From Lysobacter sp. K5869 (GTDB lineage: Bacteria; Pseudomonadota; Gammaproteobacteria; Xanthomonadales; Xanthomonadaceae), in NCBI RefSeq assembly GCF_018847975.1, contig NZ_CP072597.1, forward strand, positions 4,503,001 to 4,567,000: 64,000 nt of DNA. Reading direction: 5' to 3'. Made by a program: the position numbers and the translations under genes. The notes under the pieces were generated by a model. It was not told where the DNA came from. It worked only from the letters and a program-made list of their open reading frames with translations, and made no database searches. This document shows positions 23,083-61,500 of this stretch, piece after piece. How positions within the stretch are numbered: position 1 is the first letter of the stretch; each line of letters opens with the position of its first letter.

Positions 23083-23871
23083 CTGTAGGAGCTGCGCAAG
23101 CTGCGACCGCGAAAACGCAACGACGGTGCCCCCACCTATCGACACGGCACAACAAGCACCGCTGTTGCCGTTGCCGTTGTTGTTGTTGCCCTTCGCCTTG
23201 ACGGATCTCCGACCCAAGCCCACGCCCCGCAGCCCCGAAGGGCGTGCGCATGGATGCGCACGCGCGCCATGGGTCAGGATGACCCTTATGGCGCGGCCCC
23301 GCGCCCCTTTGAGCCATAGTGGCTTTTGATTCGAAAACAAGGAAAGCGCCTTTCTTTGGTTACTTTCTTTGGCAAGACAAAGAAAGTGACCCGGCCGCTT
23401 GCGGACGGAACGCACTTGATTGGAGCTTGTCCTCACTCGTGATTGCGTTGAGAGCGAACCCACAGCAAAGTCAAAATGGGTTCCGGCTTTCGCCGGAATG
23501 ACGGAGTGCGAGCTGCGTTTCTCGCACGTGGCGGAACACCCCACCCACCGTCATTCCGGCGAAAGCCGGAATCCATTTTGATGTTGCTTCCGTTTTCTCT
23601 GGCAAGAGGCGTACGACGACGAGCGAAGATCAAGCGCCAAGAGCTTTCGTCCGCAAGCGGCCGAGTTACTTTCTTTGTCTTGCCAAAGAAAGTAACCAAA
23701 GAAAGGCGCTTTCCCTGTTTTCGAATCAAGAGCCACTAGGTCCAGCACCGTGCGCGGGGCTGCGCCGTAAGGGGCATCCATGCCCCTACGGCGCACGCGC
23801 GCATCCATGCGCGCGCCCTCCGGGGCTTTGGGGCGTGGGCCTCGGGTGGGGTTACGTCCAAGCGAAAGGCG
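23083..23871. repeat. Composite nested palindrome, copy A
   Basis: Order along the plus strand: a SMAG/REP unit (23083-23113); a GTTGCC/GTTGTT simple repeat (23164-23190); a left outer arm (about 23194-23406); a 33-bp repeat (23472-23504); a 43-bp core (23505-23547); the inverted 33-bp repeat (23548-23580); and a right outer arm (about 23648-23871), an imperfect inverse of the left. Each outer arm contains a GATTCGAAAACA segment and a hairpin (ACTTTCTTTG with CAAAGAAAGT). Copy B is at 28893-29660. There is no transposase. Short frames inside only reflect the repeat. The rest of 22847-24182 contains no gene. Confidence 0.9.
23472..23580. repeat. Core of copy A: 33-bp inverted repeats around 43 bp
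   Basis: The left arm reads CAAAATGGGTTCC..., the right arm is the inverse of CAAAATGGATTCC..., so one base distinguishes them. The enclosed 43 bp (23505-23547) are the exact reverse complement of the 43 bp at 29297-29339 in copy B, while the arm-distinguishing base stays on the same side in both copies. Confidence 0.97.
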
Positions 23872-23887
23872 AAGACAACGACAACAG

Positions 23888-23920
23888 CAAAATAGATTCC
23901 GGCGTTCGCCGGAATGACGG
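23888..23920 (+). repeat. Degenerate single copy of the 33-bp repeat
   Basis: It matches the 33-bp family apart from CAAAATAGATTCC and GGCGTTCGCC changes, and is followed by a short slip duplication of GAATGACGG. It stands directly after composite copy A. Confidence 0.8.
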
Positions 23921-23955
23921 AATGACGGGGCAACGGGGTTTCGACGTAGTTGCGT

Positions 23956-24072
23956 TGTCGCGGTCGCCGCTCGCGCCGCTCCTGCCCGTGGTCAAGAACG
24001 GCGCGCATGCCGGCAGTCGGAAACGTAACCGGCCGGAGCCCCCGCAGGAGCGGCGCGAGCCGCCGCCGCGGC
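23956..24072. repeat. SMAG/REP-like pair, outward orientation
   Basis: An inverted-orientation unit (TGTCGCGGTCGCCGC...) at 23956-23985 and a forward unit (GCAGGAGCGGCGCGAGCCGC) at 24042-24072 lie tail to tail, the opposite arrangement to the pairs at 1.9, 18.1 and 26.5 kb. It ends about 110 bp before the ATPase gene. Confidence 0.7.
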
Positions 24073-24182
24073 AACCGGACAACCGCAATCCCCACCGCTT
24101 CACGAACCCCACACGCCTCCCGCTAGAATCGGCCCTTCGCAAGTTCCCCCGAAGCACCTCCACCAGAACCACGGAAACGGAC

Positions 24183-25718
24183 ATGGCCCCGACCCCCGGC
24201 GACACCCAGAACGACATCCTGATCGGCAAGGCCGTGACCACGCCCGACAGCGGGCAGGTGTTCCTGCACACCAAGCTCGGCAACCGCCACGGCCTCGTCG
24301 CCGGCGCCACCGGCACCGGCAAGACCGTCACCCTGATGACCCTGGCCGAAGGCTTCTCGCGCCAAGGCGTGCCGGTGTTCCTGGCCGACGTGAAAGGCGA
24401 CGTCGCCGGCCTCGCGGTCGCCGGCGCCGCCAACGACAAGCTGCAAGCGCGCCTGGGCGAGATCGGCGTCACCGACTGGACCCCGCAGGCCAACCCGGTG
24501 GTGTTCTGGGACCTGTTCGGCAAGCTCGGCCACCCGGTGCGCACCACGGTCAGCGAAATGGGCCCGACCCTGCTCGCGCGCATCCTCGAACTCAACGACA
24601 CCCAGTCCGGCGTGCTCGACATCGTGTTCAAGCTCGCCGACGACCGCGGCCTGCTGCTGCTCGACCTGGAAGACCTGCGCGCCCTGCTCGGCCTGGTCGC
24701 CGACGAGCGCAAGGACATCTCCACCAGCTACGGCCTGGTCAGCGCGCAGTCGATCGGCGCGATCCAGCGCTCGCTGCTGCGCCTGGAACAGGACGGCGGC
24801 GATCATTTCTTCGGCGAGCCGGCGCTGGAACTCGCCGACCTGATGCGCACCACCCCGAACGGCCACGGCGTGGTCAACGTGCTCGCCGCCGATTCGCTGA
24901 TCCTCAAGCCGCGCCTGTACTCCAGCTTCTTGTTGTGGCTGCTGTCGGAACTGTTCGAGCAACTGCCCGAAGTCGGCGACCTCGACCGGCCCAAGCTGGT
25001 GTTCGTGTTCGACGAAGCGCACCTGCTGTTCGACGACGCGCCGGCCGCGCTGCAGCAGCGGGTCGAGCAAGTGGTGCGGATCATCCGCTCCAAGGGCGTG
25101 GGCGTGTACTTCTGCTCGCAGTTCCCCGACGACATCCCCGACAACATCCTCGGCCAGCTCGGCAACCGCGTGCAGCACGCGCTGCGCGCGTTCACCCCGC
25201 GCGATCAAAAAGCGGTGCGCACCGCGGCCGAAACCTTCGTGCCGAACCCGGCCTTGAACGTCGCCGAGGCGATTTCCAAGCTCGGTACCGGCGAAGCGCT
25301 GGTGTCGACCTTGCAGGACAAGGGCGTGCCGATGCCGGTCGAACGCACCCTGGTGGCACCGCCGCGCTGCCGCATGGGCGCGATCACCGAGGCCGAACGC
25401 GCCCAGGTCCGCGCCGGCAGCCCGATCGGCGGCAAGTACGACACCGCGGTCAACCGCGAATCGGCCGCCGAAATGTTGGCCAAGCGCGCCGAAACCGCGG
25501 CCGAGCAGGCGCAGGCGCCGGCGGCCAAGACCCGCGAGCAGGACGATCAGGAAGAAGGCGGCTTCGGTCAGGCGGTCAAGGACGCGGTGTTCGGCACCAA
25601 GCGCCGCCAAGGCATGGTCGAGACCATGGCCAAGCAGACCGCGCGCACGGTCGGCACTCAGGTCGGGCGGCAGATTCTGCGCGGCTTGCTGGGCGGCATC
25701 TTCGGCGGCAAGCGCTGA
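24183..25718 (+). CDS. HerA/YjgR-like P-loop ATPase (DUF853)
   Basis: 511 residues. Walker A GATGTGKT is at 41-48 and Walker B with VFDEAHLLF near 272-281; [10 protein letters not shown] and the arginine-containing segments after it fit the HerA-FtsK ATPase clan. The C-terminal part has a charged stretch and the glycine-rich end typical of YjgR (LGGIFGGKR). YjgR function is unresolved; DNA or protein translocation is inferred from the fold. Start ATG 24183 follows ACGGAAACGGAC; the frame runs on upstream into repeat DNA, which is not coding. No nuclease, SIR2 or other defence partner is adjacent. Confidence 0.9.
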
Positions 25719-25726
25719 GGGGCGAG

Positions 25727-25892
25727 CAACCACCAGGAACGAGTGAAGAGGAACGAGTGAAGAGTAGGCGCTTGGGCGCTTCCGCTTCGACGCGAATCCC
25801 CGCTTGAAACCGAAAATCGGGCGCGCAGCGCCGCGAACTGAGCAAGGGCGCGCTTTCGCTCGCGCCCCTCTCCTCTACGCTCACTGCTCGCC
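25727..25892. repeat. GAGGAACGAGTGAA-type arms after the ATPase gene
   Basis: GGAACGAGTGAAGA repeats twice at 25735-25766. A weaker complementary arm (CTCCTCTACGCTCACTGCTCG) is at about 25868-25888. The same word reappears at 63.84-63.92 kb. The gap otherwise holds only the leader of the following lipoprotein gene. Confidence 0.55.
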
Positions 25893-25941
25893 GCGCAACC
25901 CGCCTGCACCATCGAACACAGCCACCGCACAGGAGTCGCCC

Positions 25942-26448
25942 GTGAATCGCAAACTGCTCGCCCTCGCCTGCCTCGCCGCGCTCGCGCTGAGCGCTTGCAA
26001 CAAGCCCGCCGAACCGGCGCCGGCTCCGGCCGATGCGCCCAAGGCCGCCGAACCGGCCGCGCCGGCGCCCGCCGAGCCCGCGCCGGCCCCCGCCGCCGAA
26101 GCCGCGCCCGCCGCGTTCGACGCCGCCGCCTTCGCCGGCACCTTCAGCGGCACCCTGCCCTGCGCCGACTGCAGCGGCATCGACACCAAGCTCGAACTCA
26201 AGGCCGACGGCAGCTACGGCCTGGACGAGAGCTACCAGGGCAAGAAGGACGGCACGTTCAAGGGCGACGGCACTTGGACCGCGGAAGAGAACGGCAAGCG
26301 CGTGCGCCTGGACCCGAACAGCAAGAGCGACGACGACCGCCTGTTCGAGATCGTGTCCAAGGACGAGATCCGCCAGCTCGACCAGGAAGGCAAGGCGATC
26401 GACTCGCAGCTCAACTACAGCCTCAAGCGCGCCGCCGCGGCCCACTAA
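25942..26448 (+). CDS. NlpE-like lipoprotein
   Basis: 168 residues. Lipobox LSAC gives lipidated Cys19; +2 is Asn. A 40-residue Pro/Ala linker (about 22-58) leads to an NlpE N-terminal-type beta-barrel domain with the CADC motif (Cys74, Cys77) in [15 protein letters not shown]. In E. coli NlpE senses lipoprotein-trafficking and surface signals for CpxA; here only the N-terminal domain is present, so signalling is uncertain. The GTG at 25942 is chosen because AGGAG lies 6 nt upstream and the signal peptide starts there; an upstream ATG at 25804 would add a non-signal extension. Confidence 0.88.
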
Positions 26449-26466
26449 CCCGCGCCGGTTCGTATC

Positions 26467-26571
26467 CCCCTGTAGGAGCGGCGCGAGCCGCGACCGCGAC
26501 AACGCAACGACGACGCCAGCTTCGATGCGATTGTGTTGCCGCGGTCGCGGCTCGCACCGCTCCTACAGGGG
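26467..26571. repeat. SMAG/REP-like inverted pair
   Basis: The outer 15-bp arms CCCCTGTAGGAGCGG (26467-26481) and its complement (26557-26571) are perfect, and the GCGAGCCGCGACCGCG parts also pair. It lies between the NlpE-like gene and greB, where it may separate their transcripts. Confidence 0.85.
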
Positions 26572-26680
26572 CGACCGTTTACTCGCGGCGATCCGTTACG
26601 CCGCGAACGCGGCCGCCGGGCTTGAACCCCGCCGCGCGCTCTGCGATAACGTCGGCCCTGCCGCCGCGAGGATCGTCGCC

Positions 26681-27193
26681 ATGGGCCGTTGGCGCCCGCC
26701 CGCCGAACACAGCACCGCGCTGATCACGCGCGAGGGCCACGCGCGCCTGAAGCACGAGCTCGACGAGCTGTGGCGGGTGCGCCGCCCGGAGGTGGTCAAG
26801 GCCTTGGCCGCGGCCGCCGCCGAAGGCGACCGCTCGGAAAACGCCGAGTACACCTACCGCAAGAAGCAGTTGGGCGAGATCGACCGGCGCGTGCGCTACC
26901 TCAGCAAGCGCTTGCCGCTGCTGCGGGTGATCGAATCCACGCCCAGCGATCCGCACTCGGTGTTCTTCGGCGCCTGGGTCGAAGTCGAGGACGTGGCCAG
27001 CGGCGAACTCGCGCGCTACCGCATCGTCGGGCCGGACGAGACCGACGCCAAGCTCGGCCACATCAGCATCGATTCGCCGCTGGCGCGGGCCATGCTCAAG
27101 CGCCGCGTCGACGACGAGTTCGAGGCGGTGCTGCCGGCGGGGCCGGCGCGGTTCGCCATCGTCGAAGTGTCTTACGCGCCGCCGAAGGCGTGA
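26681..27193 (+). CDS. greB: Transcription elongation factor GreB
   Basis: 170 residues. It rescues backtracked RNA polymerase by stimulating transcript cleavage through the secondary channel. The N-terminal coiled coil ([18 protein letters not shown]...[14 protein letters not shown]) carries the conserved acidic tip, and the C-terminal FKBP-like domain follows (about 95-165). The [20 protein letters not shown] stretch favours GreB over GreA. GAGG lies 8 nt before the ATG. The protein starts with a short non-conserved [10 protein letters not shown] extension. Confidence 0.93.
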
Positions 27194-27224
27194 GCCGGCG
27201 CGCCTCGCCGGTTCGGGCCGGCCG

Positions 27225-27431
27225 CTAAATCGCCACGATCCTGCGGCCCGCGCGCACGTCGCAACGGGCCGTGCGCGCAGGGGTCGCGGCCCAAGCCGGC
27301 GCCGGCACGCGGCAACCGATCACATCGGGACACCACGCGCAACGCGGCGGCAGATCGCGCGGAACGCGCTGGGCCGCCGCGACCGGCGGCGCGCAAACGC
27401 GCGCCGCCGGATCCGTTTCGATGCGGCTCAC
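27225..27431 (-). CDS. Possible 68-residue cysteine-containing small protein
   Basis: A GTG-started frame 7 nt beyond the stop of the upstream membrane-protein gene, with GAGG placed 5 nt before the GTG. It contains Cys31-x2-Cys34 and Cys40 (RCAWCPDVIGC), plus Cys13 and Cys58, in an otherwise Pro/Ala/Arg-rich sequence. The ribosome site and tight spacing argue for translation; the composition could also arise by chance in such GC-rich DNA. Function unknown; a small metal-binding protein is one possibility. Confidence 0.4.
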   Translation of the reverse strand: MSRIETDPAARVCAPPVAAAQRVPRDLPPRCAWCPDVIGCRVPAPAWAATPARTARCDVRAGRRIVAI

Positions 27432-27438
27432 CGCCGCC

Positions 27439-27843
27439 TCAACCGCGCTGCTGCCGGCGCAGGCCGAAGAACTGCAGTTCGGCGAACACCGCCACCACCG
27501 CCGCCTGCGCCAGCAGATAGGCCACGCCGAGCGCGTTCGGCGCGATCGCGCCTTCCAGCCACACCAGCACCGAGGCGGCGACCCAGGCGATGTTGACGCC
27601 GATCATCGTGCGCGCCAGCGGCGCGGTGATCGCGGGGCGGCTCAGCGCCCAGCCGAGGAACGCGATCCAGCCCATCAGCACCAGCCCTGAGCCGCGCAGC
27701 AGGCCGGCGTCGATGGCGGTCAAGCGCTCCAGCGGTCCGGCCGCGAGCAGTTGCAGCGCGCCGGCGGCGCCGGACACCGCGAGGTCGGCCTGGACCACGC
27801 GGCGCAGGAAGTGGGTGGGGTTGCGGTCGGCGGCGATGGCCAT
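27439..27843 (-). CDS. Small four-helix membrane protein
   Basis: 134 residues with four predicted TM helices (about 18-35, 50-68, 78-97, 103-122). A conserved-looking N-terminal RNPTHFLRRVVQADLAVSGAAGALQLL stretch precedes helix 1. No enzymatic motif is visible. It diverges from an MmyB-type regulator over a 121-bp gap containing a perfect palindrome, so it is the likely target of that regulator. ATG with AGGAGAA about 5 nt upstream. Confidence 0.82.
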   Translation of the reverse strand: MAIAADRNPTHFLRRVVQADLAVSGAAGALQLLAAGPLERLTAIDAGLLRGSGLVLMGWIAFLGWALSRPAITAPLARTMIGVNIAWVAASVLVWLEGAIAPNALGVAYLLAQAAVVAVFAELQFFGLRRQQRG

Positions 27844-27913
27844 GTGCGTTCTCCTGTCGTGTCTGCGTTCGTTTTGGATGGCGCCATCACAACGCGGCGC
27901 GCGCGGCGGGTCG

Positions 27914-27930
27914 ATTACCTCGCAGGTAAT
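27914..27930. promoter_or_regulatory. Operator-like palindrome ATTACCT-CGC-AGGTAAT
   Basis: Perfect 7-bp arms with a 3-nt centre lie in the divergent gap, 71 bp from the membrane-protein start and 35 bp from the regulator start. It is AT-rich against a very GC-rich background. It is the natural candidate site for the XRE/MmyB repressor encoded next to it. Confidence 0.7.
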
Positions 27931-27964
27931 GCCCGCGCCGGCGCGGCTGGGCTAAGGTGGCCGC

Positions 27965-28780
27965 ATGAACGATTCCGCTCCCGTGGGCGAACTGTTGCGC
28001 CAATGGCGCCAGCGCCGCCGTCTGACCCAGTTCGATCTGGCCGAGATGGCCGAGATCTCCACCCGCCACGTCAGCTTCATCGAAACCGGCCGCTCGCTGC
28101 CGAGCCGGGCCATGCTGCTGCGCCTCGCCGACCGTCTCGACGTGCCGCTGCGCGAACGCAACGCGCTGATGACCGCGGCCGGACTGGCGCCGATCTACGC
28201 CGAACGCCCGCTCGACCATCCCGCGATGCGCGAAGCCTATGCCGCGGTCGAACTGGTGCTGTACGCGCACGAACCGCATCCCGCGCTGGCCGTGGACCGG
28301 CACTGGAACCTGATCCAACACAACCGCGCGCTCGCGCCGATGCTGGCGGGCGTGGCCGACCACCTGCTCGCGCGCCCGTCCAACGTGCTGCGCGCGGCGC
28401 TGCACCCCGAGGGCATGGCGCCGAACATCCTCAACCTGGGCGAATGGCGCGCGCACATCCTGCACCGCCTGCGCCATCAGATCGAAACCAGCCGCGATCC
28501 GGTGCTGGAAGCGCTCTACGCCGAACTGGAGGCCTATCCCGCCCCTGACGACTTCGACCCGAACGAACTCACCGGCGCCGCGCACGTCGCGGTGCCGTGC
28601 CGGATGCGCACCGCGTTCGGCGACTTGTCCTTCATCAGCACCACGACCGTGTTCGGCACGCCGATGGATGTGACCTTGGCGGAATTGGCGATCGAATCGT
28701 TTTTTCCGGCGGACGCGGCGACGGCGCGGGCGATGCGCGAGTTCGGGGCGAGTTTGGCGCCGTCGGCTGGGGCTGGGTAA
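27965..28780 (+). CDS. XRE-family regulator with MmyB-like ligand-binding domain
   Basis: 271 residues. An N-terminal helix-turn-helix (about 8-62, QFDLAEMAEISTRHVSFIETGR) is followed by the MmyB-type PAS-like domain that binds fatty acids in related proteins (LVLYAHEPHPALAVDRHWNLIQHN; near the end FGDLSFISTTTVFGTPMDVTLAELAIESFFPAD). Such regulators usually repress a divergent gene; here that is the four-helix membrane protein. Ligand unknown. Confidence 0.9.
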   Translation: MNDSAPVGELLRQWRQRRRLTQFDLAEMAEISTRHVSFIETGRSLPSRAMLLRLADRLDVPLRERNALMTAAGLAPIYAERPLDHPAMREAYAAVELVLYAHEPHPALAVDRHWNLIQHNRALAPMLAGVADHLLARPSNVLRAALHPEGMAPNILNLGEWRAHILHRLRHQIETSRDPVLEALYAELEAYPAPDDFDPNELTGAAHVAVPCRMRTAFGDLSFISTTTVFGTPMDVTLAELAIESFFPADAATARAMREFGASLAPSAGAG

Positions 28781-28837
28781 GGGGCGGGTTATTGGCTGGT
28801 CGCGAAGACGCGTTGAAGCTTGCGTCGTAACCGCGTT

Positions 28838-28922
28838 TCGCAGTCGCAGCTCGCGCAGCTCCTACAAGGTCTCCGGCCGGTTTCGTTTCCGACTGTAGGA
28901 GCTGCGCGAGCTGCGACCGCGA
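28838..28922. repeat. SMAG/REP-like pair, outward orientation
   Basis: An inverted-orientation unit (TCGCAGTCGCAGCTC...CTCCTACAAG) at 28838-28868 and a forward unit (CTGTAGGAGCTGCGCGAGC) at 28893-28922 lie tail to tail. Both use the GAGCTGCG variant, as does the unit at 23083. The forward unit is the left end of composite copy B. Confidence 0.75.
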
Positions 28923-29660
28923 CGCTGCGATAACGACGAACGCCGCCAACCTGCACGACACAACAAACGCCGCTGTTCGCTGTTCGCTTTGACGTATCTC
29001 CGAGCAAAGCCCACGCCCCGCAGCCCCGGAGGGCGTGCGCATGGATGCGCACGCGCGCCATGGGTCAGGATGACCCTTATGGCGCGGCCCCGCGTCGCTG
29101 TGAGCCCTAGTGGCTCTTGATTCGAAAACAAGGAAAGCGCCTTTCTTTGGTTACTTTCTTTGGCAAGACAAAGAAAGTGACCCGGCCGCTTGCGGACGGA
29201 ACGCTTTGGATTGGAGCTTGTCGTCACTCGTTGCTGCGTTGAAGGCAAAACTAACGGCAAAGTCAAAATGGGTTCCGGCTTTCGCCGGAATGACGGTGGG
29301 TGGGGTGTTCCGCCACGTGCGAGAAACGCAGCTCGCACTCCGTCATTCCGGCGAAAGCCGGAATCCATTTTGATGTTGCTTACGCTTTCTCTGGCAAGAG
29401 ACGCACGACGACAAGCGAAGATCAAACGCTTAAAGCTTTCGTCCGCAAGCGGCCGAGTTACTTTCTTTGTCTTGCCAAAGAAAGTAACCAAAGAAAGGCG
29501 CTTTCCCTGTTTTCGAATCAAGAGCCACTAGGTCCAGCACCGGGCGCGGGGCTGCGCCGTAAGGGGCATCCATGCCCCTACGGCGCACGCGCGCATCCAT
29601 GCGCGCGCCCTCCGGGGCTTTGGGGCGTGGGCCTCCGGCGCAGATACGTCCAAGCGAATA
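28893..29660. repeat. Composite nested palindrome, copy B
   Basis: Same order and polarity as copy A: REP unit, left outer arm (about 28985-29198), 33-bp repeat (29264-29296), 43-bp core, inverted 33-bp repeat (29340-29372), right outer arm (about 29440-29660). A GGCAAC simple repeat follows (29661-29688), the complement of the GTTGCC repeat found at the left side of copy A. The outer arms match copy A closely; only the core is inverted. The remainder of 28781-29799 contains no gene. Confidence 0.9.
29264..29372. repeat. Core of copy B, inverted relative to copy A
   Basis: 33-bp arms with GGGTTCC on the left and the complement of GGATTCC on the right, as in copy A. The 43 bp between them (29297-29339) are the exact reverse complement of 23505-23547. 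Confidence 0.97.
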
Positions 29661-29754
29661 GCAACGGCAACGGCAACGGCAACGGCATAGCCGAAGCGAC
29701 AACCACGACAACCCCACCCCACCGACCGTCCGTCGGCCACTCGGCAAATATTTT

Positions 29755-33890: not shown

Positions 33891-36800
33891 ATGCAAACCA
33901 CGCCCTCGCCGTCGCAACCGGCTCCCACCGCGGAGGCCGGCGCGACCGGCCGCGCCAACGCCTGGACCCGCGCCACCCAGGCCGTCTTCGGCCAGATGGC
34001 GTGGACGCCGCCGCCCTGGTTCGGCGCGCTGCTCGCGCGCATCCGCCAACGCCCCGGCCTTTATCTCGGCAGCCTGCTCGGCGTGTTGCTCGCCGCGTGG
34101 CTCGCGCACTGGCTGATCACCCGGCCCAAACCGGTGATCCCCGGCGCGCTCAGCGTCGAGCTGCACGCGCCCGAGCTCACCGATTACGACCGCAAGCCGC
34201 CGAGCGTGCACCGGCTGAGCCTGACCTTCTCCGACTCGGCCGCGCCGCTCAAGCAGGTCGGCGCCGCGCCGGTCGGCGTCACCTTGACGCCCGAACTCAA
34301 GGGCGCGTGGACCTGGGAAGACGACAAAACGCTGGTGTTCGTGCCCGCCACCGACTGGCCGGTGAAGACCAAGTACAAGGTCGAGATCGATCCCGACACC
34401 AGCGTCGCGCCCAAGGTCGTGCTGCAGGAACACGAATTCGAGTTCGAGACCGCGCCGTTCAAGGCCGAGCTGTCCAACAGCGAGTTCTACCAAGACCCGC
34501 AAGACCCCGCGCTCAAGAAGGGCGTGTTCGAACTGAAGTTCTCGCACCCGGTCGACGAGGCGCAGCTGCAGCGCCGGATCGCGCTGTCGCTGGTCGACGG
34601 CGGCGGCACCGCCCAGGCCGCGCCCAAGTACACCCTCACCTACGACGACAACCGGCTCAAGGCCTGGGTCCATTCCGAACCGCTGAAGCTGCCGGAGAAC
34701 GGCGGCACCCTGAGCCTGGAGGTCGCCGCCGGCGTGGTCAGCGCGCTCGGCGGCGAAGGCAGCGCGGAGAAACTGTCTTCGCAGGTCAAGTTGCCTTCGC
34801 TTTATAGCGTCAGCGTGGACGAGGTCACCGCCACCCTGGTCGAGAACGAGCGCTTCGAGCCCGAACAGGCGCTGGTGCTGAGCTTCAACAACGCGATGCG
34901 CGACACCGACGTGGCCGGCGCCGCGCGCGCCTGGCTGCTGCCGACCAAGGACCCGCGCCGCCCGGCCAAGGAGCAAAGCGGCAACGCGTCGTGGTCCGCC
35001 GGCAGCGTCGACGAAGCCGTGCTCAAGGCCGCCACCGCGCTGCCGCTGAGCCCGATCCCGGCCGAGCGCGAATACACCCCGGTGCACAGCTTCAAGTTCC
35101 AGGCGCCGCCGGGCCGCTACGTCTATGTGCGGGTCAACAAGGGCCTGAAGGCGTTCGGCGGCTTCCTGCTCGGCCGCGACCACACCGCGGTGCTGACCGT
35201 CCCCGAATACCCGAAGCTGCTGCGCTTCGTCGGCGAAGGCGCGCTGCTGTCGCTGCGCGGCGAGCGCCGGGTCAGCGTGGTCTCGCGCAACGTGCCGCTG
35301 GCGCGGCTGGAGATCGCGCGGGTGCTGCCCGAGCAGATCCAGCATCTGGTGTTCAACAACGAAGGCAGCTACGCCAAGCCGCAGATGTACAACCTCGCCG
35401 CCGACAGCCTGGTCGAGCGCGAGGAGCGCCGCCTGACCCTGCCGGCCGAGGACCCGTCCAAGGCCCATTACGAAGGCGTGGACCTGGGCGCCTACCTCAA
35501 GCCCAACCGCCGCGGCGTGTTCCTGCTGAGCCTGCGCACGATGAGCGAGGACGACGCCAAGCGTCCTAGCGAGGAAACCATCGCCGACGACGCCGGCAAC
35601 GAAGAGGACAGCCGCCTGGTCGTGCTCACCGACCTCGGCATCGCGGTCAAGCAAGGCCTGGACGGCCGCCGCGACGTGTTCGTGCAGTCGCTGTCCAACG
35701 GCGCGCCGGTCGCCGGCGCGCGGGTGCGCGCGGTGGCGCGCAACGGCGAGACCCTGGTGGAAGCCGACACCGACGCCAGCGGCCGCGCCCAGTTGCCCTC
35801 GCTCAAGGGCTTCAAGCGCGAGAAGCAACCGACCATGCTGACCGTCAGCCAGGGCGAGGACTACTCGTTCCTGCCGATCGACGACTACCGGCGCAAGCTC
35901 GACTACTCGCGCTTCGACATCGGCGGCGAGCCCAACGACATCGAATCCGGCGCGCTCAACGCCTTCTTGTTCTCCGACCGCGGCCTGTACCGGCCGGGCG
36001 ACACCATCAACATCGGCATGATCGTGCGCGCCGCCGACTGGAAGCGCCCGCTCGCCGGCCTGCCGCTGGAATGGGAGTTCACCGACCCGCGCGGCAACGT
36101 CGCCCAGCGGCAGAAGCTCAAGCTCAGCGAACAAGGCTTCGAAAGCGCCAGCTTCGCGCCGAGCGAGAGCGCGCCCAGCGGTACCTGGCAGATCCAGCTG
36201 TTCCTGCTCGGCCGCGACAACGAACGCACCAGCATCGGCTCGACTTCGGTGCAGGTGCGCGAGTTCGCGCCCGATACGATGAAGGTCGCGGTCAAGCTGT
36301 CGGCCGATAACCCCAAGGGCTGGATCAAGCCGGATCAGCTCGCCGCCGTGGTCAGCGCCGAGAACCTGTTCGGCACCCCGGCGCAGCAGCGCAAGGTCGA
36401 GGGCACGATGGTGCTGCGGCCGTATTTCCCCAGCTTCGCCCAATACCCGGGTTATCAGTTCTTCGATCCGCAGCGGGCCAAGGAAGGCTACGACGAGTCG
36501 CTCAGCGATCAGACCACCGACGCCCAGGGCCAGGCCACCTTCAAGCTCGACCTGACCAAGTACGAACGCGCGACCTATCAGCTCAGCTTCCTGGCGCGCG
36601 CGTTCGAACCCGGCAGCGGCCGCAACGTCGCCGCGCAGACCAGCGCGCTGGTGTCGAACAACGACTTCCTGGTCGGCATCAAGGCGGTGGACGCGCTCGA
36701 TTACGTCCAGCGCGGCGCCAAGCGTTCGCTGCAACTGGTCAGCATCGGCCAGGACGGCGCGCCCAAGCAGGTCGCGGGCCTGCGCGCGGTGGTGGTGGAG

Positions 36801-39800
36801 AAGCGCTACGTCTCGGTGCTCACCAAGCAGGATTCGGGCCTGTACCGCTACGTCTCGCACGAACGCCGCTACGACCTGCGCGAGCAGCCGCTGGCCCTGG
36901 CCGGCGGCCGCCAGAGCGTCGGCCTGCAGACCGATCAGCCCGGCGACTTCGTGATCGAAGTGCGCGCGGCCGACGGCAAGGTGCTCAACCAGATCGGCTA
37001 CCGCGTCGCCGGCGCGGCCAACCTGTCGCGCTCGCTGGAGCGCAACGCCGAACTCGGCCTGACCTTGTCCAAGCCCAGCTACAAGCCGGGCGAGACCATC
37101 GAAGTCAGCATCCGCGCGCCCTACCCCGGCGCCGGCCTGATCACCATCGAACGCGACAAGGTCTACGCCCACGCGTGGTTCCGCGCCGACAGCACCGCCA
37201 GCGTGCAGAAGATCGTGCTGCCGGCGGATTTCGAGGGCAGCGGCTACGTCAACGTGCAGTTCCTGCGCGATCCGAACTCTGACGAGATCTACATGAGCCC
37301 GTTGTCGTTCGGCGTGGCGCCGTTCGCGGTCGACCGCGGCGCGCGTACCCAGCCGCTGAGCGTGAGCCTGCCGAAGGTGACCAAGCCGGGGCAGACGCTG
37401 AACGCCTCGATCACCACCGAGGGCAAGGCGCGCGTGGTGCTGTTCGCGGTCGACGAAGGCATCCTGCAGGTCGCGCGCTATCGCGTCGGCGAGCCGCTGG
37501 ATCACTTCTTCCGCAAGAAGATGCTGCAGGTGGACACCGCGCAGATCCTCGATCTGCTGCTGCCGGAGTTCAGCCGTCTCGCCGCCGCGGCCGCGCCCGG
37601 CGGCGACGGCGAAGGCGGCATGGCCAAGCACCTCAATCCGTTCAAGCGCAAGTCGGAGAAGCCGGCGGTGTGGTGGTCGGGCATCGTCGATGTCGACGGC
37701 CATCGCGACTTCCCGTTCGTGCTGCCCGATCACTTCAACGGCAAGGTGCGCGTGGTCGCGGTGGCGGTGACGCCGCAGCGCGTGGGCATCGTCCAGGACG
37801 AAGCGATCGTCCGCGGCGACTTCGTGCTCACCCCCACCCTGCCCACCCACGTGGCGCCGGGCGACGAGTTCGACCTGCCGGTCGGCGTGGCCAACACCAT
37901 CGAAGGCGCCAAGCAGGCGGCGAAGGTGACGGTGAACCTGCAACTGCCGGCGGGCCTGAGCCTGGTCGGCGCCGCGCCGGCGCCGGTGTCGATCGCCCCG
38001 CGCAGCGAAACCACGGTGCGCTTCCGCGTGCGCGCCGGCAACGCGCTGGGCGCGCTGCCGGTCGGCATCCAGGCGGTGTCGGGCACCTACAACGCCAAGC
38101 GCCGGATCGAACTGTCGCTGCGTCCGGCCATCGTCGCCCGTCAGGACCTGATCGCCGGCCGCGCCGACAAACGCACGGCGATCCAGCCGCTGCGTTCGAT
38201 GTTCGACCAGTACGCCACCCGCCGCGTGTCGGCCTCGGTGTCGCCGCTGGTGGCGGTGGACGGGCTCAGCGCGTATCTGGCCGATTACCCGTACCAGTGC
38301 AGCGAGCAAGTGCTCAGCGGCGCGTTCCCGGCGCTGGTGCTGGGCGCGCATCCGGAACTGGGCAAGGTGGTCGCCGCCGGCAAGGGCGATCCGCGCCAGA
38401 ACGTGATCGACCTGCTGCGCGCGCGCCAGAACAGCGAAGGCGGCATCGGCCTGTGGACCGCCACGCCCGAGGCCGACGACTTCGTCACCGGCTACGCCGC
38501 GCTGTACCTGATCGAAGCGCGCGAGCGCGGCCTGGCCGTGCCCGACGATCTGCTCAAGTCGCTCAACGGCTATCTGGAGCAGCGCGCGTCCGACCGCTCC
38601 GGCAACGATCTGCCGGCGCTGCGCAACCGCGCGCTCGCCGTGTATCTGCTGGTCCGCCAGGGCCGCACCGCGAGCAATCTGCTCAGCGCGGTGCACGAGC
38701 AGATCAAGCGCGATCAGCCCAAGACCTGGGAGAACGACGTCGCCGGCCTGCTGATCGCTTCGAGCTATCAGCTGCTGCAGCAGGACAAGCCGGCGCGCGC
38801 GCTGGCCACGGTGGCGTTGCGCCGGGCCAACGGCGCCGCGAACACGGTCGCCTCGCCGTACGCGTTCTACTACGACGGCGGCATCGATCAGGCCTGGATC
38901 GTGTACCTGCTCAACCGCCACTTCGGCGCGGTCAGCCGCGAACAGCTCAAGCGCACCGCGCTCGACCGCCTGCTCGATCCGCTGCGCCACAACAGCTACA
39001 ACACCCTGTCCTCGGCATTGACCGTGCTGGCGCTGGACTCGTACGCCTCGGCCCAGCCGCAGCAGCCGCTGCCGGTGCTGGAAGCGGCCGGCAAGGACGG
39101 CAAGGCGCGCCGGGTCGGCGCGGCCGCGGGCGTGATCAGCCGCGGCGATTTCGCCGGCGGCGATCTGCGCCTGTGGGTGGCGCCGGGCGGCGACGCGCCG
39201 GCGTGGTATCTGGTCAACCAGAGCGGCTTCGACCGCGCGCTGCCGAAGGCGGTGCAGGACAAGGGCCTGGAAGTCGTGCGCGACTACCTCGACGACGCCG
39301 GCAAGCCGGTGACGTCGATCAAGCAGGGCCAGGAAGTGACGGTGCGGCTGCGGCTGCGCGCGCTCGGCGCGTCGATGCGCGACAACATCGCGGTGGTCGA
39401 TCTGCTGCCCGGCGGGTTCGAGACGGTGATGCAGTACGCCGCGCCGCCCGCCAGCGACAGCAGCGAATCGGAGAACGAGTGCGGCGACGAATGCGGCGAA
39501 GGCGACGGCGAGAGCGACGGCGAAGGCCAGCCCTCGCGCGACGGTCCCGATCCGAACGCCGCGCCGGCGCAGACCCTGGCGCTGCCGGGTTCGAGCTTCC
39601 AGCCGCAGCACGTGGAGCAGCGCGAAGACCGGGTGATCCTGTACGGCAGCGTCGGCGGCGAGCTCAGCGAGTTCCGCTACAAGGTGCGCGCCAACAACAG
39701 CGGCAGCTTCGTGGTGCCGCCGGCCTATGCCGAGTCGATGTACGAGCGCTCGGTGTATGCGCAGGGCGGCCCGGCCGGGACGCTGCAGGTGACCGCGCCG

Positions 39801-39809
39801 ACGCCCTGA
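33891..39809 (+). CDS. Alpha-2-macroglobulin family protein (YfhM/ECAM-like) with intact thioester motif
   Basis: 1972 residues. A cytoplasmic N-terminus of about 50 residues and one TM helix (about 57-76) precede MG domains, a bait-like region and the helical thioester domain. The CxEQ thioester motif is CSEQ, with Cys1470, so covalent trapping of proteases should be possible. The alpha-2-macroglobulin domain 'G.V..D' block is at about 1160-1270 (VVLFAVDEGILQVARYR). An acidic Asp/Glu/Gly run (about 1860-1880, ECGDECGEGDGESDGEG) is unusual. The C-terminal MG10-like domain ends near the stop. PbpC follows after 10 bp, the same pairing as in E. coli, where the two are thought to guard and repair the periplasm after attack. 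The N-terminus lacks a lipobox, unlike E. coli ECAM. Confidence 0.93.
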   Translation: MQTTPSPSQPAPTAEAGATGRANAWTRATQAVFGQMAWTPPPWFGALLARIRQRPGLYLGSLLGVLLAAWLAHWLITRPKPVIPGALSVELHAPELTDYDRKPPSVHRLSLTFSDSAAPLKQVGAAPVGVTLTPELKGAWTWEDDKTLVFVPATDWPVKTKYKVEIDPDTSVAPKVVLQEHEFEFETAPFKAELSNSEFYQDPQDPALKKGVFELKFSHPVDEAQLQRRIALSLVDGGGTAQAAPKYTLTYDDNRLKAWVHSEPLKLPENGGTLSLEVAAGVVSALGGEGSAEKLSSQVKLPSLYSVSVDEVTATLVENERFEPEQALVLSFNNAMRDTDVAGAARAWLLPTKDPRRPAKEQSGNASWSAGSVDEAVLKAATALPLSPIPAEREYTPVHSFKFQAPPGRYVYVRVNKGLKAFGGFLLGRDHTAVLTVPEYPKLLRFVGEGALLSLRGERRVSVVSRNVPLARLEIARVLPEQIQHLVFNNEGSYAKPQMYNLAADSLVEREERRLTLPAEDPSKAHYEGVDLGAYLKPNRRGVFLLSLRTMSEDDAKRPSEETIADDAGNEEDSRLVVLTDLGIAVKQGLDGRRDVFVQSLSNGAPVAGARVRAVARNGETLVEADTDASGRAQLPSLKGFKREKQPTMLTVSQGEDYSFLPIDDYRRKLDYSRFDIGGEPNDIESGALNAFLFSDRGLYRPGDTINIGMIVRAADWKRPLAGLPLEWEFTDPRGNVAQRQKLKLSEQGFESASFAPSESAPSGTWQIQLFLLGRDNERTSIGSTSVQVREFAPDTMKVAVKLSADNPKGWIKPDQLAAVVSAENLFGTPAQQRKVEGTMVLRPYFPSFAQYPGYQFFDPQRAKEGYDESLSDQTTDAQGQATFKLDLTKYERATYQLSFLARAFEPGSGRNVAAQTSALVSNNDFLVGIKAVDALDYVQRGAKRSLQLVSIGQDGAPKQVAGLRAVVVEKRYVSVLTKQDSGLYRYVSHERRYDLREQPLALAGGRQSVGLQTDQPGDFVIEVRAADGKVLNQIGYRVAGAANLSRSLERNAELGLTLSKPSYKPGETIEVSIRAPYPGAGLITIERDKVYAHAWFRADSTASVQKIVLPADFEGSGYVNVQFLRDPNSDEIYMSPLSFGVAPFAVDRGARTQPLSVSLPKVTKPGQTLNASITTEGKARVVLFAVDEGILQVARYRVGEPLDHFFRKKMLQVDTAQILDLLLPEFSRLAAAAAPGGDGEGGMAKHLNPFKRKSEKPAVWWSGIVDVDGHRDFPFVLPDHFNGKVRVVAVAVTPQRVGIVQDEAIVRGDFVLTPTLPTHVAPGDEFDLPVGVANTIEGAKQAAKVTVNLQLPAGLSLVGAAPAPVSIAPRSETTVRFRVRAGNALGALPVGIQAVSGTYNAKRRIELSLRPAIVARQDLIAGRADKRTAIQPLRSMFDQYATRRVSASVSPLVAVDGLSAYLADYPYQCSEQVLSGAFPALVLGAHPELGKVVAAGKGDPRQNVIDLLRARQNSEGGIGLWTATPEADDFVTGYAALYLIEARERGLAVPDDLLKSLNGYLEQRASDRSGNDLPALRNRALAVYLLVRQGRTASNLLSAVHEQIKRDQPKTWENDVAGLLIASSYQLLQQDKPARALATVALRRANGAANTVASPYAFYYDGGIDQAWIVYLLNRHFGAVSREQLKRTALDRLLDPLRHNSYNTLSSALTVLALDSYASAQPQQPLPVLEAAGKDGKARRVGAAAGVISRGDFAGGDLRLWVAPGGDAPAWYLVNQSGFDRALPKAVQDKGLEVVRDYLDDAGKPVTSIKQGQEVTVRLRLRALGASMRDNIAVVDLLPGGFETVMQYAAPPASDSSESENECGDECGEGDGESDGEGQPSRDGPDPNAAPAQTLALPGSSFQPQHVEQREDRVILYGSVGGELSEFRYKVRANNSGSFVVPPAYAESMYERSVYAQGGPAGTLQVTAPTP

Positions 39810-49786: not shown

Positions 49787-50048
49787 TCGTCATTCCGGCG
49801 AAAGCCGGAACCCATTTTGCCGTGGCCCCTTCAGCCTCTCGACCCAGCGAAGAAGAGAAGCAAAAGACGAATCAACCGACTCGCGCCATCCTCCAACACC
49901 GTCATTCCGGCGAAAGCCGGAATCCATTTTGATCTTGCTTTCGCCTCTTTCTGCGCGCATCGACAGCGGCAAAGGCAACAGCAAAATGGATTCCGGCTTT
50001 CGCCGGAATGACGGTATCGAGGAGGCCTGGCTTTCGCCGGAATGACGG
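49787..50048. repeat. Cluster of 33-bp GGAATGACGG-type repeats
   Basis: Copies at 49787-49819 (minus), 49899-49931 (minus) and 49982-50014 (plus), and a truncated plus copy at 50027-50048 inside a short tandem duplication (TCGAGGAGGCCTGG / TCGAGGAGGTCTGG). The 79 bp between the first two copies are the reverse complement, with changes, of the spacer in the 52.6-52.8 kb cluster. It occupies most of the gap 49739-50147; no gene is seen. Confidence 0.92.
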
Positions 50049-52502: not shown

Positions 52503-52996
52503 CCGTCATTCCGGCGAAAGCCGGAATCCATTTTGCGGTCGCCTCTGTCGTCGCCGAGGCGAAGAGAAGCAGAAGCAAGATCAAAATGGATTCCGGCTTT
52601 CGCCGGAATGACGGGGATGGGAGAGCGGCGCGAGTCGACTGATTGTTCTTTCGCTTCTCTTCCTCGCCGGGTCGAGAGGCTGAAGAGGCAACGGCAATAT
52701 GGGTTCCGGCTTTCGCCGGAATGACGGGGGTGGGAGAGCGGCGCGAGTCGACTGATTGTTCTTTCGCTTCTCTTCCTCGCCGGGTCGAGAGGCTGAAGAG
52801 GCAACGGCAAAATGGGTTCCGGCTTGCGCCGGAATGACGATGCAAGGGGGCTTGTGCCGGAAGGTGATGATGCGGCGGGCGGCCGCTCAATCGCCCGCCT
52901 TCTTCAGCGCGCACAGTCGCCGCCGTTCTCGTCCGCGCAATCGTTTCGGCGGCGCGCCCCACGCCGTCATTCCGGCGAAAGCCGGAATCCATTTTG
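52503..52996. repeat. Cluster of 33-bp repeats with tandem 113-bp duplication
   Basis: Copies at 52503-52535 (minus), 52582-52614, 52695-52727 and 52808-52840 (all plus) and 52964-52996 (minus). A 113-bp unit (80-bp spacer plus 33-bp repeat) is duplicated in tandem at 52618-52730 and 52731-52843. All full copies contain the GGCGAAAGCC hairpin or a one-base variant. Apart from this cluster and the terminator, 52210-53151 has no gene. Confidence 0.92.
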
Positions 52997-53927: not shown

Positions 53928-56900
53928 TCAGTACTTCTTCTCGACGTTGATCATGAAGCTGTTGTCGTCGTCGTTGCCGCTGCCGAACAGGCCGCGGTAC
54001 TCCAGACGCAGCGCCCAATCGCGCTCGGTCTGCAGCACCGCGCCCAGGCCGAACACGAAGCGGCTGCGGTCCAGGCCCTGCAAGCGGGCGCGGTAGAACG
54101 GACCGCCGACCATGTCGGCATAGCTCATGATCGCGTAGCTCGCATCCTGGAAGTCGTGCTGGTACTCCAGGCGCAGCTGCGGCGAGAACGTGCCCCAACG
54201 CACCGGGTACCGGTAATCCAGACGCAGGCCCAGGCTGGTGGTGGTGGTGTCGATGTCCAGGTCGCGGTACTTGAGCACGTACTGCGCGTCGCCCGTCTCG
54301 GTGTAGCCGTCGAGGGTGGCGCGGGCCACGTCCAGACGCGCGTACGGGGTGATGCGCAGCTGCTCGCGCTGGTACTCCAGGCCGGTGGAAATCGAGGCGA
54401 ACCACTGCTTGCCGTCGCGGCTGCCGTTGACCATGCCGCCGGTGTCGGTGACGTAGCGGCGCGAATCGAACGACAGCCACTGGTAGCCGAGCAAGCCGTC
54501 CAGGTAGAAGGTTTCGCCCGGATGGTAGCTGGCGTACAGCACCGCGCTGTAGCTCTCGCCCTTGCTGCGGCTGCCGCGGTCGCCCACGTCGGTGTCGTCG
54601 CGGCCGTAGCCGATGCCGCCGCCGAAGGCGAAGTCGCGGCGCAGGCGATAGTCCGCGCCCACGCTGACGCCGCTGGTCTTGAAGTCCAGCCCGCCGGAGC
54701 CGCCGCCGCGTCCGTCGCGGTTGCCGCTTTCGATGGTGCCGCCGGTCCACACGCCGAACTGCGGGCCGGTGCCCGGCACGCCCGGCTTGCCGTCGGCCGC
54801 GGCTTGCTCGTCGCCCAGATCCGCCGTGCGGCAATCGCTGCCCGGGGTGCGGCGCGCGCCTTCGCGGCAACGCGGGTCGACCGAGAAGCTCAGCCCGTTG
54901 TCGAAGCGCGAACCGCCGGTGCCGCCGTCGTGCAGGCCTTCCATGCGCTTTTGGAAATTGCCGATCTGCGCGTTGGCGAAGCGGCGCGCGGCCTCGGCCT
55001 GGGCGTTGAGGATGCCCAGCACTTCGGCGTCCTTGGACGGATCGCTGCGCGGCGCCACGTCGATCTCCACCGTCGCCGGCGCCGAGGTGGCGTAAGCGTT
55101 GCTGAGGGTGAAGGTCGCCACGGTCAGGCCCGAGTAGCCGATCACCGGGGTGTAGCTGAGCTTGTAAGTGCCGTTGGAGGCGGTGACCGTCGCCGTGCCC
55201 GAGCTGGCCGGGGTCAGCGAGACCAAGGCCGCGCCGGTGAACGGACCGCCGCGCGCGTCTTGGGTCAGATCGACCGTGACCGTGGCGCCGGCGACGGTGC
55301 GCACGCGCTTGGGCGTGGCCACCGGCACCGGGTTGACGGTGATGGTCGAGGTGATCGGCGCGGACGGGCCGAACGGGTTGTTGAGGGTGTAGGTCAGCGC
55401 GATCGCGCCGGCGGTGTCGGCCGCGGGCGTGTAGAGGATCTGCGTGGTGCCCTGCACCACCGCGGTGCCCGAGCTCGGCGGCGTCAGCAAGGTCACGCCG
55501 GTGAACGGCGCGCCGGTGGCGCCGTTGGCGGCGTCGAGGGTGACCGCTTGGGTCGACAGCGTGGTGACGTTCTGCGGCTGGCCCACCGGCACCGGCAAGG
55601 CGTTCACCGTCACCGTCACGGTGGCCGGCGCGGAGGTGCCGCCGGGGCCGGTCGCGGTGTAGGTGAAGGTGTCGGTGCCGAAGTAGTTGCTGGCCGGGGT
55701 GTAGACGATGGTGGTGCCGCTCGGCGCCGCGGTGCCGTGCGCGGGCGCCGAGGCGACCGCGACCGAGCTGATCACGCCGGTGTCGTTGGCGATCACGTTG
55801 ATGGTCACGGCCTGGTTCGCCAGGGTCGAAGCGCTGTCGTTCACCGCCACCGGGACCGCGTCGGCGATCTGCACCGTGTAGCTCTGCGTGCTGTTGTAGC
55901 CGGCGTCGTCGGTGGAGCGGATCGCGAAGGTGTAGCTGCCCGCGGTCGTCGGCGTGCCGCTGATCGCGCCCGCCGAGCTCAGCGCGATGCCCGTCGGCAA
56001 GCTGCCGGCGGCCAGCGCGTAGGTGTACGGCGCGATGCCGCCGCTGCTGCTCAGGCTCTGGCTGTAAGCGGTGCCGACCACGCCGCCCGGCAACGTCGCC
56101 GGAGCGATGACCACGGTCGCCGGAGCGATGCTGAAGGTGTAGACCTTGCTCGCGGTCTGGCCGTGCGCGTCGGTCGCCTGGACGGTCAGGCTGAAATTGC
56201 CGTCGCTGCGCGGAATGCCGCTGATCGCGCCGGCCGAACTCATGCTCATGCCGACCGGCAACGCGCCCGCGCTCAGCGAGAACGCGTACGGCGCGACGCC
56301 GCCGCTGGCGGTGAAGGTCTGGTTGTAGGCGACCGCGGCGGTGCCGTTGGGCAGCGAGGCGGGATCGATGGCGATGCTCGGCACCGCGACCACGATGGTG
56401 TAGCTCTGGTCGATGCGGAACGGCGCACCGACGCCGGTGCTCGAATCGGTGGCACGCACGGTGATGTTGTAGCTGCCCGGGACCGTCGGCGTACCGCTGA
56501 GCACGCCGGCCGAACTCAGGCTCACCCCAACCGGCAGCGAACCGGCCGCCAAGGTGAAGCTGTAGCTCGGCGTGCCGCCGGCGACGGCGAAGTTGATGGT
56601 GCTGGCGACGCCGTAGTTCATCGGCAGGTTGCCGGCGGCCGGGGTCATCGTCAGGGTCGGCGCGCCGACGGTCAGGTTGAAGATCTGGCCGACGGTGAAC
56701 GGCCCGTTGCCGGTGCTGGAATCGCGCGCGCTGGCGTTGAGGGTGAACGTGCCCGAGGCGGTCGGCGTGCCCGCCACGGTGACGCTGTCGGCGGTGGTGC
56801 CGGTAACGCTCAGGCCGGCCGGCAGGCCGGTGACGTTGAAGTTGCTGTACGGCGAAGTGCCGCCGGACCAGGTGAAGGTCTGGGTGTAGGCGGTGCCGAT

Positions 56901-60671: not shown

Positions 60672-60786
60672 GGTGTCATCCCCTGATGGCCGGGCGGCCC
60701 CCGTCCTGGACGCCGCCGGCAGCGGCCGGACATCGGTCCGGTCCAGCCTTGTGCTGTGCGCGCCAACCCCCGTCGGCACGCTCGTT

Positions 60787-60857
60787 CATGACCTGATACG
60801 CAAATTGGATGCAGAACCGGCCGCATTCCGTGCGCATTTGCGTTTAGAGAGGTCATG
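60787..60857. promoter_or_regulatory. Two-part dyad between the divergent adhesin and tail-collar genes
   Basis: Outer arms CATGACCT (60787-60794) and AGGTCATG (60850-60857), inner arms ACGCAAAT (60798-60805) and ATTTGCGT (60836-60843), share one centre near 60822. Inner sequence GGATGC...GCATTCC and CCGGCCG is also roughly symmetric. The arms are AT-richer than the background. A regulator site controlling both genes is likely; a DNA or RNA hairpin is the alternative. Confidence 0.7.
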
Positions 60858-60888
60858 GCGCCACAAGCGCCATGCTCCGAGCCGATCG

Positions 60889-60924
60889 GACCGCCCCTCC
60901 CCGCCGTGCGCGAAGGGGGCGGTC
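60889..60924 (+). promoter_or_regulatory. Leader stem-loop before the tail-collar operon
   Basis: GACCGCCCC (60889-60897) pairs with GGGGCGGTC (60916-60924) around an 18-nt loop, 64 nt before the start codon of the first collar gene. No T-run follows, so if functional it would be an mRNA leader structure rather than a terminator. Confidence 0.5.
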
Positions 60925-60987
60925 GGTGGCTCCGGGCCAGTCGTCCGGCGCGCGCACGGCGCCCGGAACCATCCTCTGGGGGAAGAG

Positions 60988-61500
60988 ATGACCGAAGTAT
61001 TCCTGGGACAAATCATGCCCGTGGCGTTCAATTACCCGCCGCGCGGCTTCGCCTTCTGCAACGGGCAATTGATGGCGATCGCGCAGAACCAAGCGCTGTT
61101 CTCGTTGCTGGGCACCACCTACGGCGGCAACGGCACCACCAATTTCGCCCTGCCCGACCTGCGCAGCCGCACGCCGGTCGGCTTCGGCAACGGCACGTCC
61201 GGCTACACCTTGGGGGAGCAAGGTGGAGTGGAGAACGTGACCTTGCTGACGACCCAACTGCCGAACCACACCCACGCCGTGTCCGGCACCACCGCCGCCG
61301 CCACCACCCGCGCCCAGCGCGACGGCCTTTACGCCAAGGACACCACCGCGATCTACGCCAACACCGGCGGCCCGCAAGTAACGATGGGCCCGAGCACCGT
61401 CACGCCGAGCGGCGGCACCCAGCCGCACACCAACATCCAGCCGTATCTGACGATCAATTTCTGCATCGCTCTCAGCGGCATCTATCCCTCGCGCAACTGA
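60988..61500 (+). CDS. Tail-collar-domain protein 1 (microcystin-dependent/MdpB-like)
   Basis: 170 residues, no signal peptide. The N-terminal 55 residues are a phage tail collar domain (VFLGQIMPVAFNYPPRGFAFCNGQLMAIAQNQALFSLLGTTYGGNGTTNFALPDLRSRTPVG), followed by a Thr/Ala-rich variable middle and a C-terminal IQPYLTINFCIALSGIYP block. Cys24 and Cys159 are shared by all three tandem paralogues. Such proteins occur outside phages and are of unknown function. A strong GGGGGAAGAG precedes the ATG. Confidence 0.88.
   Translation: MTEVFLGQIMPVAFNYPPRGFAFCNGQLMAIAQNQALFSLLGTTYGGNGTTNFALPDLRSRTPVGFGNGTSGYTLGEQGGVENVTLLTTQLPNHTHAVSGTTAAATTRAQRDGLYAKDTTAIYANTGGPQVTMGPSTVTPSGGTQPHTNIQPYLTINFCIALSGIYPSRN

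Follow-up and report, generated by a model that had tools for sequence, protein, structure and literature searches.

Background

The closest described counterparts of the locus analysed here are the small hairpin-loop inversions of chloroplast genomes and the template-switch inversions of yeast. In chloroplasts, spacers of 5-50 bp that are bordered by inverted arms of 11-24 bp undergo 'flip-flop' inversion, a process in which, according to the available text of the report concerned (PMC12928735), the loop inverts without its flanks and does so recurrently. In yeast, template switching at short inverted repeats has been described, in the accessible part of that work, to invert the intervening spacer reversibly between perfect arms, with changes of 2-5 bp (PMC8604942).

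Additional points of comparison are provided by bacterial REP sequences. The CGTC-1 REP family, as defined by Di Nocera et al. in the available portion of their text, is characterized by a CGTC tag, an 8-bp stem that starts with AT pairs, a 4-nt loop and a CCA-like tail, and pairs with their tags inside (the 'TT' type) are there called rare for CGTC REPs (PMC3733652). In Neisseria, dRS3 is a REP of the CGTC class into which the MDA phage, carrying an IS110/492-type transposase, inserts, and REPs of that class border the short intergenic spacers of NIMEs; PCR across all NIMEs after a second insertion of MDA phage gave no inversion, as far as the available parts of these reports describe (PMC3733652, PMC3046118). 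No report of the inversion of a REP, BIME or REPIN spacer, or of a like small bacterial inversion, was found in the open-access literature as represented by titles and the openings of abstracts, which does not prove its absence from print, and the accessible parts of PMC3116915 and PMC3733652 contain no mention of REP spacer inversion.

The element described below, found in a 64,000-nucleotide stretch of the chromosome of Lysobacter sp. K5869 (hereafter, the window), resembles the hairpin-loop inversions of chloroplasts and yeast, of which it would be a REP-borne counterpart in bacteria. Like the former, it combines short inverted arms with a spacer of tens of bases, and that spacer is found in both orientations between intact arms (11 F and 13 R, as defined below); unlike them, it resides on a bacterial chromosome, belongs to a dispersed multi-copy element, and has as its arms REPs that tip a 700-bp palindrome. 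Compared with the yeast cases, the inverted segment is much longer (37-73 bp), the inversion is at saturation, and the arms are not homogenized. The likeness to NIMEs, in which dRS3-class REPs alternate with RS repeat units, was judged on REPs and spacers and lies in the bordering of a short intergenic spacer by CGTC-class REPs; the palindromic chassis is fixed here, unlike the intergenic mosaics of NIMEs. REPINs and BIMEs with a RAYT share with the element a hairpin-forming inverted REP pair, and related species carry GTAG pairs at the apex, whereas the apex in K5869 displays inward CGTC tags and no linked RAYT in place of the outward GTAG tags and cognate RAYT of a REPIN. Finally, Piv/IS110 segments similarly invert between inverted repeats; in contrast to those systems, no IS110 gene turned up in the genome, just 43 bp separate the arms, and neither a gene nor a promoter-like site was seen in the core of the two window copies.

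A nested palindrome with an inverted core

A quasi-palindromic, non-coding element of approximately 700 bp lies at positions 23176..23882 of the window (copy 1, forward strand), and a second copy, 90% identical, at 28983..29672 (copy 2, forward strand; genome positions 4531983-4532672). Copy 1 has as neighbours an SLT/LysM gene and a HerA-type helicase gene, and copy 2 the genes of an MmyB-like and an ArsR-like regulator. Both copies are nested, with a left arm on the forward strand facing a right arm on the reverse strand at each of three levels. The outer arms (23176..23273 and 23785..23882 in copy 1; 28979..29064 and 29577..29662 in copy 2) are 78% and 83% complementary, respectively, and the middle arms (23317..23410, which keeps its side, and 23645..23738; 29106..29201 and 29437..29532) are 95-96% complementary. 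The apex arms, at 23472..23504 and 23548..23580 in copy 1 and at 29264..29296 and 29340..29372 in copy 2, are CGTC-class REPs with their tags toward the core, and an additional CGTC REP adjoins copy 1 on its outside (23897..23920, forward strand). As single-stranded DNA, copy 1 is predicted to fold at -307.7 kcal/mol, against a mean of -137.4 kcal/mol for 20 shuffles (z -27).

Between the apex arms lies a 43-bp core, at 23505..23547 on the forward strand in copy 1 (orientation F) and at 29297..29339 on the reverse strand in copy 2 (orientation R). The two cores are exact reverse complements (43/43), a match expected by chance in the window at approximately 3e-17, and the sequences on their two sides are collinear, at 93% and 95% identity. 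The observation of an earlier note on this DNA, that a 43-bp segment is inverted between otherwise collinear copies and bordered in both by 33-bp inverted repeats, was thereby confirmed, each pair of repeats containing one mismatch.

Orientation across the genome

The host genome is a single contig of 5,968,034 bp, in which a search that scored the best 40 of 165 candidates found the element 24 times in near-full form and several times as a half copy. The count was cross-checked with the middle segment as a second query (31 of 31 candidates scored), which recovered 23 of the 24 known copies (L023 was missed) and 4 half copies, and no additional full copy. Elsewhere, seven plasmid records displayed partial matches only, at 7-9% coverage, and a 24-base core pattern searched in genome contigs of other species gave 0 matches, the element's own record possibly having been left out of that search.

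Each copy was oriented by its own middle and outer arms, with F denoting the core as it stands in copy 1. Eleven of the 24 cores are in orientation F (L001-L005, L008-L011, L013 and L017) and 13 in orientation R (L006, L007, L012, L014-L016 and L018-L024), so that the scoring of all genomic copies that the earlier note had proposed did uncover both forms. In all 23 scorable copies the middle and outer segments have the same orientation (the outer arms of L017 are ambiguous), and no inversion of the next nested, middle segment was seen among those 23. The cores measure 37, 42, 43, 48 or 73 bp, and the classes of 42, 43 and 48 bp each occur in both orientations; all three 73-bp cores are F, and the lone 37-bp core is R. 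There are 21 different core sequences among the 24, many with private substitutions.

No promoter-like site was found within the core in a sigma-70-type scan of the two window copies (2 of the 24), and no gene was found in it; one promoter-like site lies at 23448-23477, to the left of the copy 1 core. With cores free of promoter-like sites in both window copies, there is no sign of a phase switch, and a phase-variation switch was rejected since the invertible segment of those two copies, by that scan, holds no promoter or coding sequence.

Recurrence and the placement of the exchange

The distribution of orientations suggests that inversion of the core has been recurrent rather than a single event, because orientation is unlinked to the phylogeny of the arms, to that of the cores, and to 12 of 14 informative core columns. 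When orientation is mapped on the arm tree, 7 changes are required (bootstrap range 6-10; branches with good support force at least 3), and shuffled orientations average 8.3 changes, 129 of 500 shuffles being as low as the observed value. The core tree requires 8 changes (range 7-9, with a minimum of 2 forced), against a mean of 8.0 for shuffled orientations. Resolution of both trees is weak, good support being confined to 3 of the 21 inner branches in the arm tree and reached by none of the 18 in the core tree; independently of any tree, the 12 columns display all four combinations of allele and orientation. One 43-bp core sequence occurs without any change as F in L001 and as R in both L015 and L022, 2 of 4 pairs of identical, same-length cores are discordant in orientation, and so are 3 of 9 pairs of copies whose arms lie within 4% of each other, with approximately half of all pairs discordant in the later bins of arm distance (12/23, 20/35, 27/54, 29/56 and 52/99). 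The claim of at least one inversion event was therefore correct in that the core did invert between its arms, but it understated a history with 11 against 13 copies and 7-8 changes on the trees.

Cores also move between copies of the element, because distances between cores show no correlation with those between arms (Mantel r -0.09, p 0.77) and a composite core of 73 bp recurs on three different arm backgrounds (L009, L010 and L013). Parallel exchange alone is insufficient to account for the data, since orientation would then stay tied to core alleles, which it does not.

A single base that differs between the left and right apex arms had been taken to place the crossover. It does keep its side in both window copies (G on the left, A on the right), but over the 24 copies it is not diagnostic: left and right carry G/A in 12, A/A in 9, G/G in 3, and the fully swapped A/G in 0. 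The tags that lie 10-15 bases farther out, beyond the REP, did not change sides in 23 of the 24 copies, as the earlier note had said of the flanks and outer arms; the exchange points accordingly fall inside the apex arms. The proposed location within a shared inner arm is thus supported, with the correction that the identical block from marker base to core measures 24 bp and not 22; these inner 24 nt are identical in 21 of 24 copies.

The middle arms retain fixed differences between left and right. Trimmed to 66 bp, left and right middle arms are 96% alike, with an identity of 0.996 among left arms, 0.986 among right arms, and 0.963 between left and right both within and between copies. Within-copy homogenization was detected at neither the middle (p 0.98) nor the outer arms (p 0.45), the apex arms being too uniform for that comparison. 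As far as these sequences record, the arms of the longer pair, which stand a few hundred bases outward, never exchanged, and the shorter pair, 43 bp apart, did so to saturation. That the longer middle arms show no exchange disfavours ordinary, length-dependent (RecA-type) homologous recombination. Furthermore, the stiffness of DNA counts against a two-site recombinase that acts on duplex DNA with arms 43 bp apart, and such an enzyme is disfavoured here for that reason.

Proposed mechanism

The reading that we favour, at a probability of about one half, is that the apex arms exchange locally, in a process of either the hairpin or the template-switch type, and thereby flip the spacer repeatedly. 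The two arms would pair in single-stranded DNA, forming a hairpin or cruciform; alternatively, a polymerase would switch template from one arm to the other and back, copying the spacer in reverse. By either route the spacer would be copied or rejoined in the reverse direction, in line with the descriptions for yeast (PMC8604942) and chloroplasts (PMC12928735). Both the local nature of the exchange and the pairing of arms in single-stranded DNA are steps that we infer from the pattern. The apex hairpin is predicted at approximately -58 kcal/mol in both orientations of the core.

Several considerations weigh against this reading. Generic template switching should affect any close inverted repeat alike, and should homogenize the arms; the first expectation is at odds with a related species (below), and the second with the middle and outer arms. 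Exchange of cores between copies, which also takes place, could likewise carry orientation along.

The REP class of the apex and the question of an enzyme

In related genomes the same chassis holds a pair of GTAG REPs with a linker of approximately 41 bp, present in 14 of 32 loci scanned among the relatives (at most 13 candidates scored per genome). Linker and flank agree in orientation in 5 of 5 loci of one genome (G009; the flank of L087 is weak) and in 4 of 5 of another (G004, L091 being the inverted one), whereas all 4 loci of a third have them in opposite orientations (G015; the flanks of L104 and L107 are weak). The largest sample came from Lysobacter sp. yr284, in which the tags point outward and the loci were picked by the left-flank motif alone, blind to the linker. 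One of the 26 complete linkers is inverted (L174, at the same place as L091), and the other 25 all run in the same direction. Left out of the 26 were 11 linkers cut by the edge of the locus (their visible bases resemble the common orientation), 1 duplicate, 1 Dyella match and 1 Planosporangium match, together with L179 of L. enzymogenes, inverted by a weak score; the divergence comparison was also made without L188. By that comparison, yr284 copies have diverged by 11.0% in the left arm and 16% in the spacer, against 7.4% and 13% in K5869, and the predicted energies of the apex hairpins (-55.8 and -51.9 kcal/mol for yr284, -57.9 and -58.0 kcal/mol for K5869) are similar. The difference in the number of inverted copies, 13 of 24 against 1 of 26, corresponds to a Fisher p of 8e-5, in which the copies are not independent and the species background is confounded. 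At the NlpE-gre locus a GTAG pair occupies the same place in 4 genomes, with a near-symmetric linker from which orientation cannot be read; linkers of GTAG pairs are generally quasi-symmetric, among the matches listed, which makes such pairs unfit for a wider test of orientation.

The contrast between CGTC and GTAG apices argues against a mechanism that is purely generic and keeps a CGTC-specific enzyme in play. It is possible, and tentatively the second choice, that a sequence-specific enzyme (a RAYT, another HUH nuclease or an unrecognized recombinase) recognizes CGTC REPs and acts on the DNA that a close pair encloses, either inverting it or cutting it out and putting it back: the CGTC apex is near 50:50 where the GTAG apex of like geometry is not, the REPs coincide with the spacer and the exchange block, and the genome offers candidates by profile match (4 Y1_Tnp genes, 1 serine recombinase and 4 tyrosine recombinases), although the two species differ in more than their REP class. 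The apex arms themselves fit the CGTC-1 description, in the order CGTC-ATTCCGGC-GAAA-GCCGGAAT-CCA, and their inward tags make them a TT pair by the definition given in the available text of PMC3733652. Exact CGTC hairpins number 222 in the K5869 genome, against 0 for a reversed-pattern control.

None of the four Y1_Tnp loci (approximately 3.2 kb each) contains a CGTC REP, and GTAG REPs flank one of these genes instead, which counts against a RAYT as the agent. A RAYT adjoining CGTC REPs was accordingly rejected for these four loci, within which the CGTC REPs, like the CGTC-1 family, lack a dedicated transposase. The suggestion of an IS110/Piv enzyme was sensible, because the arms share their class with dRS3, the target of MDA phage insertion; it did not survive, PF01548 having 0 matches in the whole K5869 genome (11 of 11 candidates scored) and a match in 1 of 20 genomes of the genus. 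The proposed search for recombinase genes, then, returned no IS110/Piv gene but did return the four tyrosine recombinase matches. A broader form of the idea, somewhat more doubtful, holds that close, inward pairs of CGTC REPs would be the substrates of an undescribed trans-acting activity that turns the DNA between them, with the palindrome serving as a mere frame of reference.

Exchange between copies, old inversions and assembly

A less likely account invokes ectopic gene conversion, in which another copy would pair in antiparallel fashion via the REP arms and donate its core reversed, so that nothing inverts in place. The uncorrelated histories of cores and arms and the spread of the 73-bp core variant over three arm backgrounds agree with it, as does the ability of the whole element to match itself in reverse, at 76-82% identity. 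Antiparallel tracts, however, should often take in the middle segment, which is unflipped in 23 of 23 copies, and homology between copies is far greater in the parallel alignment. Solitary CGTC pairs, present in 9 of 14 loci examined, would also be poor donors: 8 of the 9 spacers matched the core no better than shuffles, and the remaining one (L070) contains only a partial patch that scores 24, where the lowest-scoring of the 24 real cores reaches 41. They were rejected as a source of cores.

It is improbable that a few old inversions were followed by amplification and shuffling of two fixed forms, with no ongoing process; the weak trees, on which forced changes number only 3 (arms) and 2 (cores), and the uniform orientation of the 73-bp cores (n=3) would allow it, but orientation should then have remained linked to core alleles, contrary to the 12 of 14 columns with all four combinations. 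An assembly artefact at some copies is very improbable, as the orientations, known from assembled sequence, come from a single-contig genome with 24 loci, 21 of 24 cores that differ, and a consistently placed middle segment.

Implications for REP biology

A REP pair that stands alone has unique flanks, and for that reason an inverted spacer goes unnoticed when a single genome is examined. Twenty-four pairs of the same kind in a fixed chassis act as a natural reporter, in which the space between REPs turns over at saturation and sequence 60 bp away does not. One practical caution follows for comparisons of strains, in that short intergenic differences at REP pairs may be inversions and not substitutions. 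The presence of CGTC or GTAG REPs at the same apex supplies an internal contrast between physical and enzymatic explanations, and for CGTC REPs, for which no mobilizing enzyme is known, the question is now open to direct assay. If a trans-acting activity does turn the DNA between such pairs, then the missing CGTC transposase would be an unknown enzyme rather than none.

Structure of the element copies

The 73-bp core found between the apex arms of three copies of the quasi-palindromic element (L009, L010 and L013) is a composite, in which a 42-type core is followed by a partial REP junction and the tail of a 43-type core; the three copies carry this core in three different arm backgrounds. At the outer arms, copies L013, L017 and L019-L022 form a single clade with good support, and within that clade the right side also carries the outer-left unit, a pattern that looks like the result of a single overwriting of one outer arm by the other. 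Half elements are found in the same genome (G000:C1) at 984583, 1383680, 104726, 5794116, 5840247 and 4186309, and several of them stop close to the palindrome centre.

CGTC-class REPs also form arrays at window 49787-50048 and 52503-52987, where the spacers recur and some of the REPs are direct repeats, and are found in direct tandem at G000:C1:1800487-1801061 and at locus L077 of the related genome G009, with periods of approximately 138 bp and 80 bp.

Large proteins encoded in the window

A 2283-residue protein (53928-60779, minus strand) combines an autotransporter domain with many Ig-like domains, and is adjoined by tandem related genes (60670-61500, plus strand), one of which displays a phage tail collar domain. 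A bacterial alpha-2-macroglobulin-type protein of 1972 residues is encoded at 33891-39809 (plus strand).

GTAG REPs and the RAYT-like gene

A GTAG REP pair lies between NlpE and Gre genes (window 26472-26566) and is conserved at this position in four species of the genus. Elsewhere in the genome, at locus L061 (G000:C1, near 1627533-1627772), inverted GTAG REP pairs (locus positions 1224-1306 and 1923-2009) are found on either side of a RAYT-like Y1_Tnp gene, and this gene is likely the mobiliser of the TGTAGGAGC repeats.
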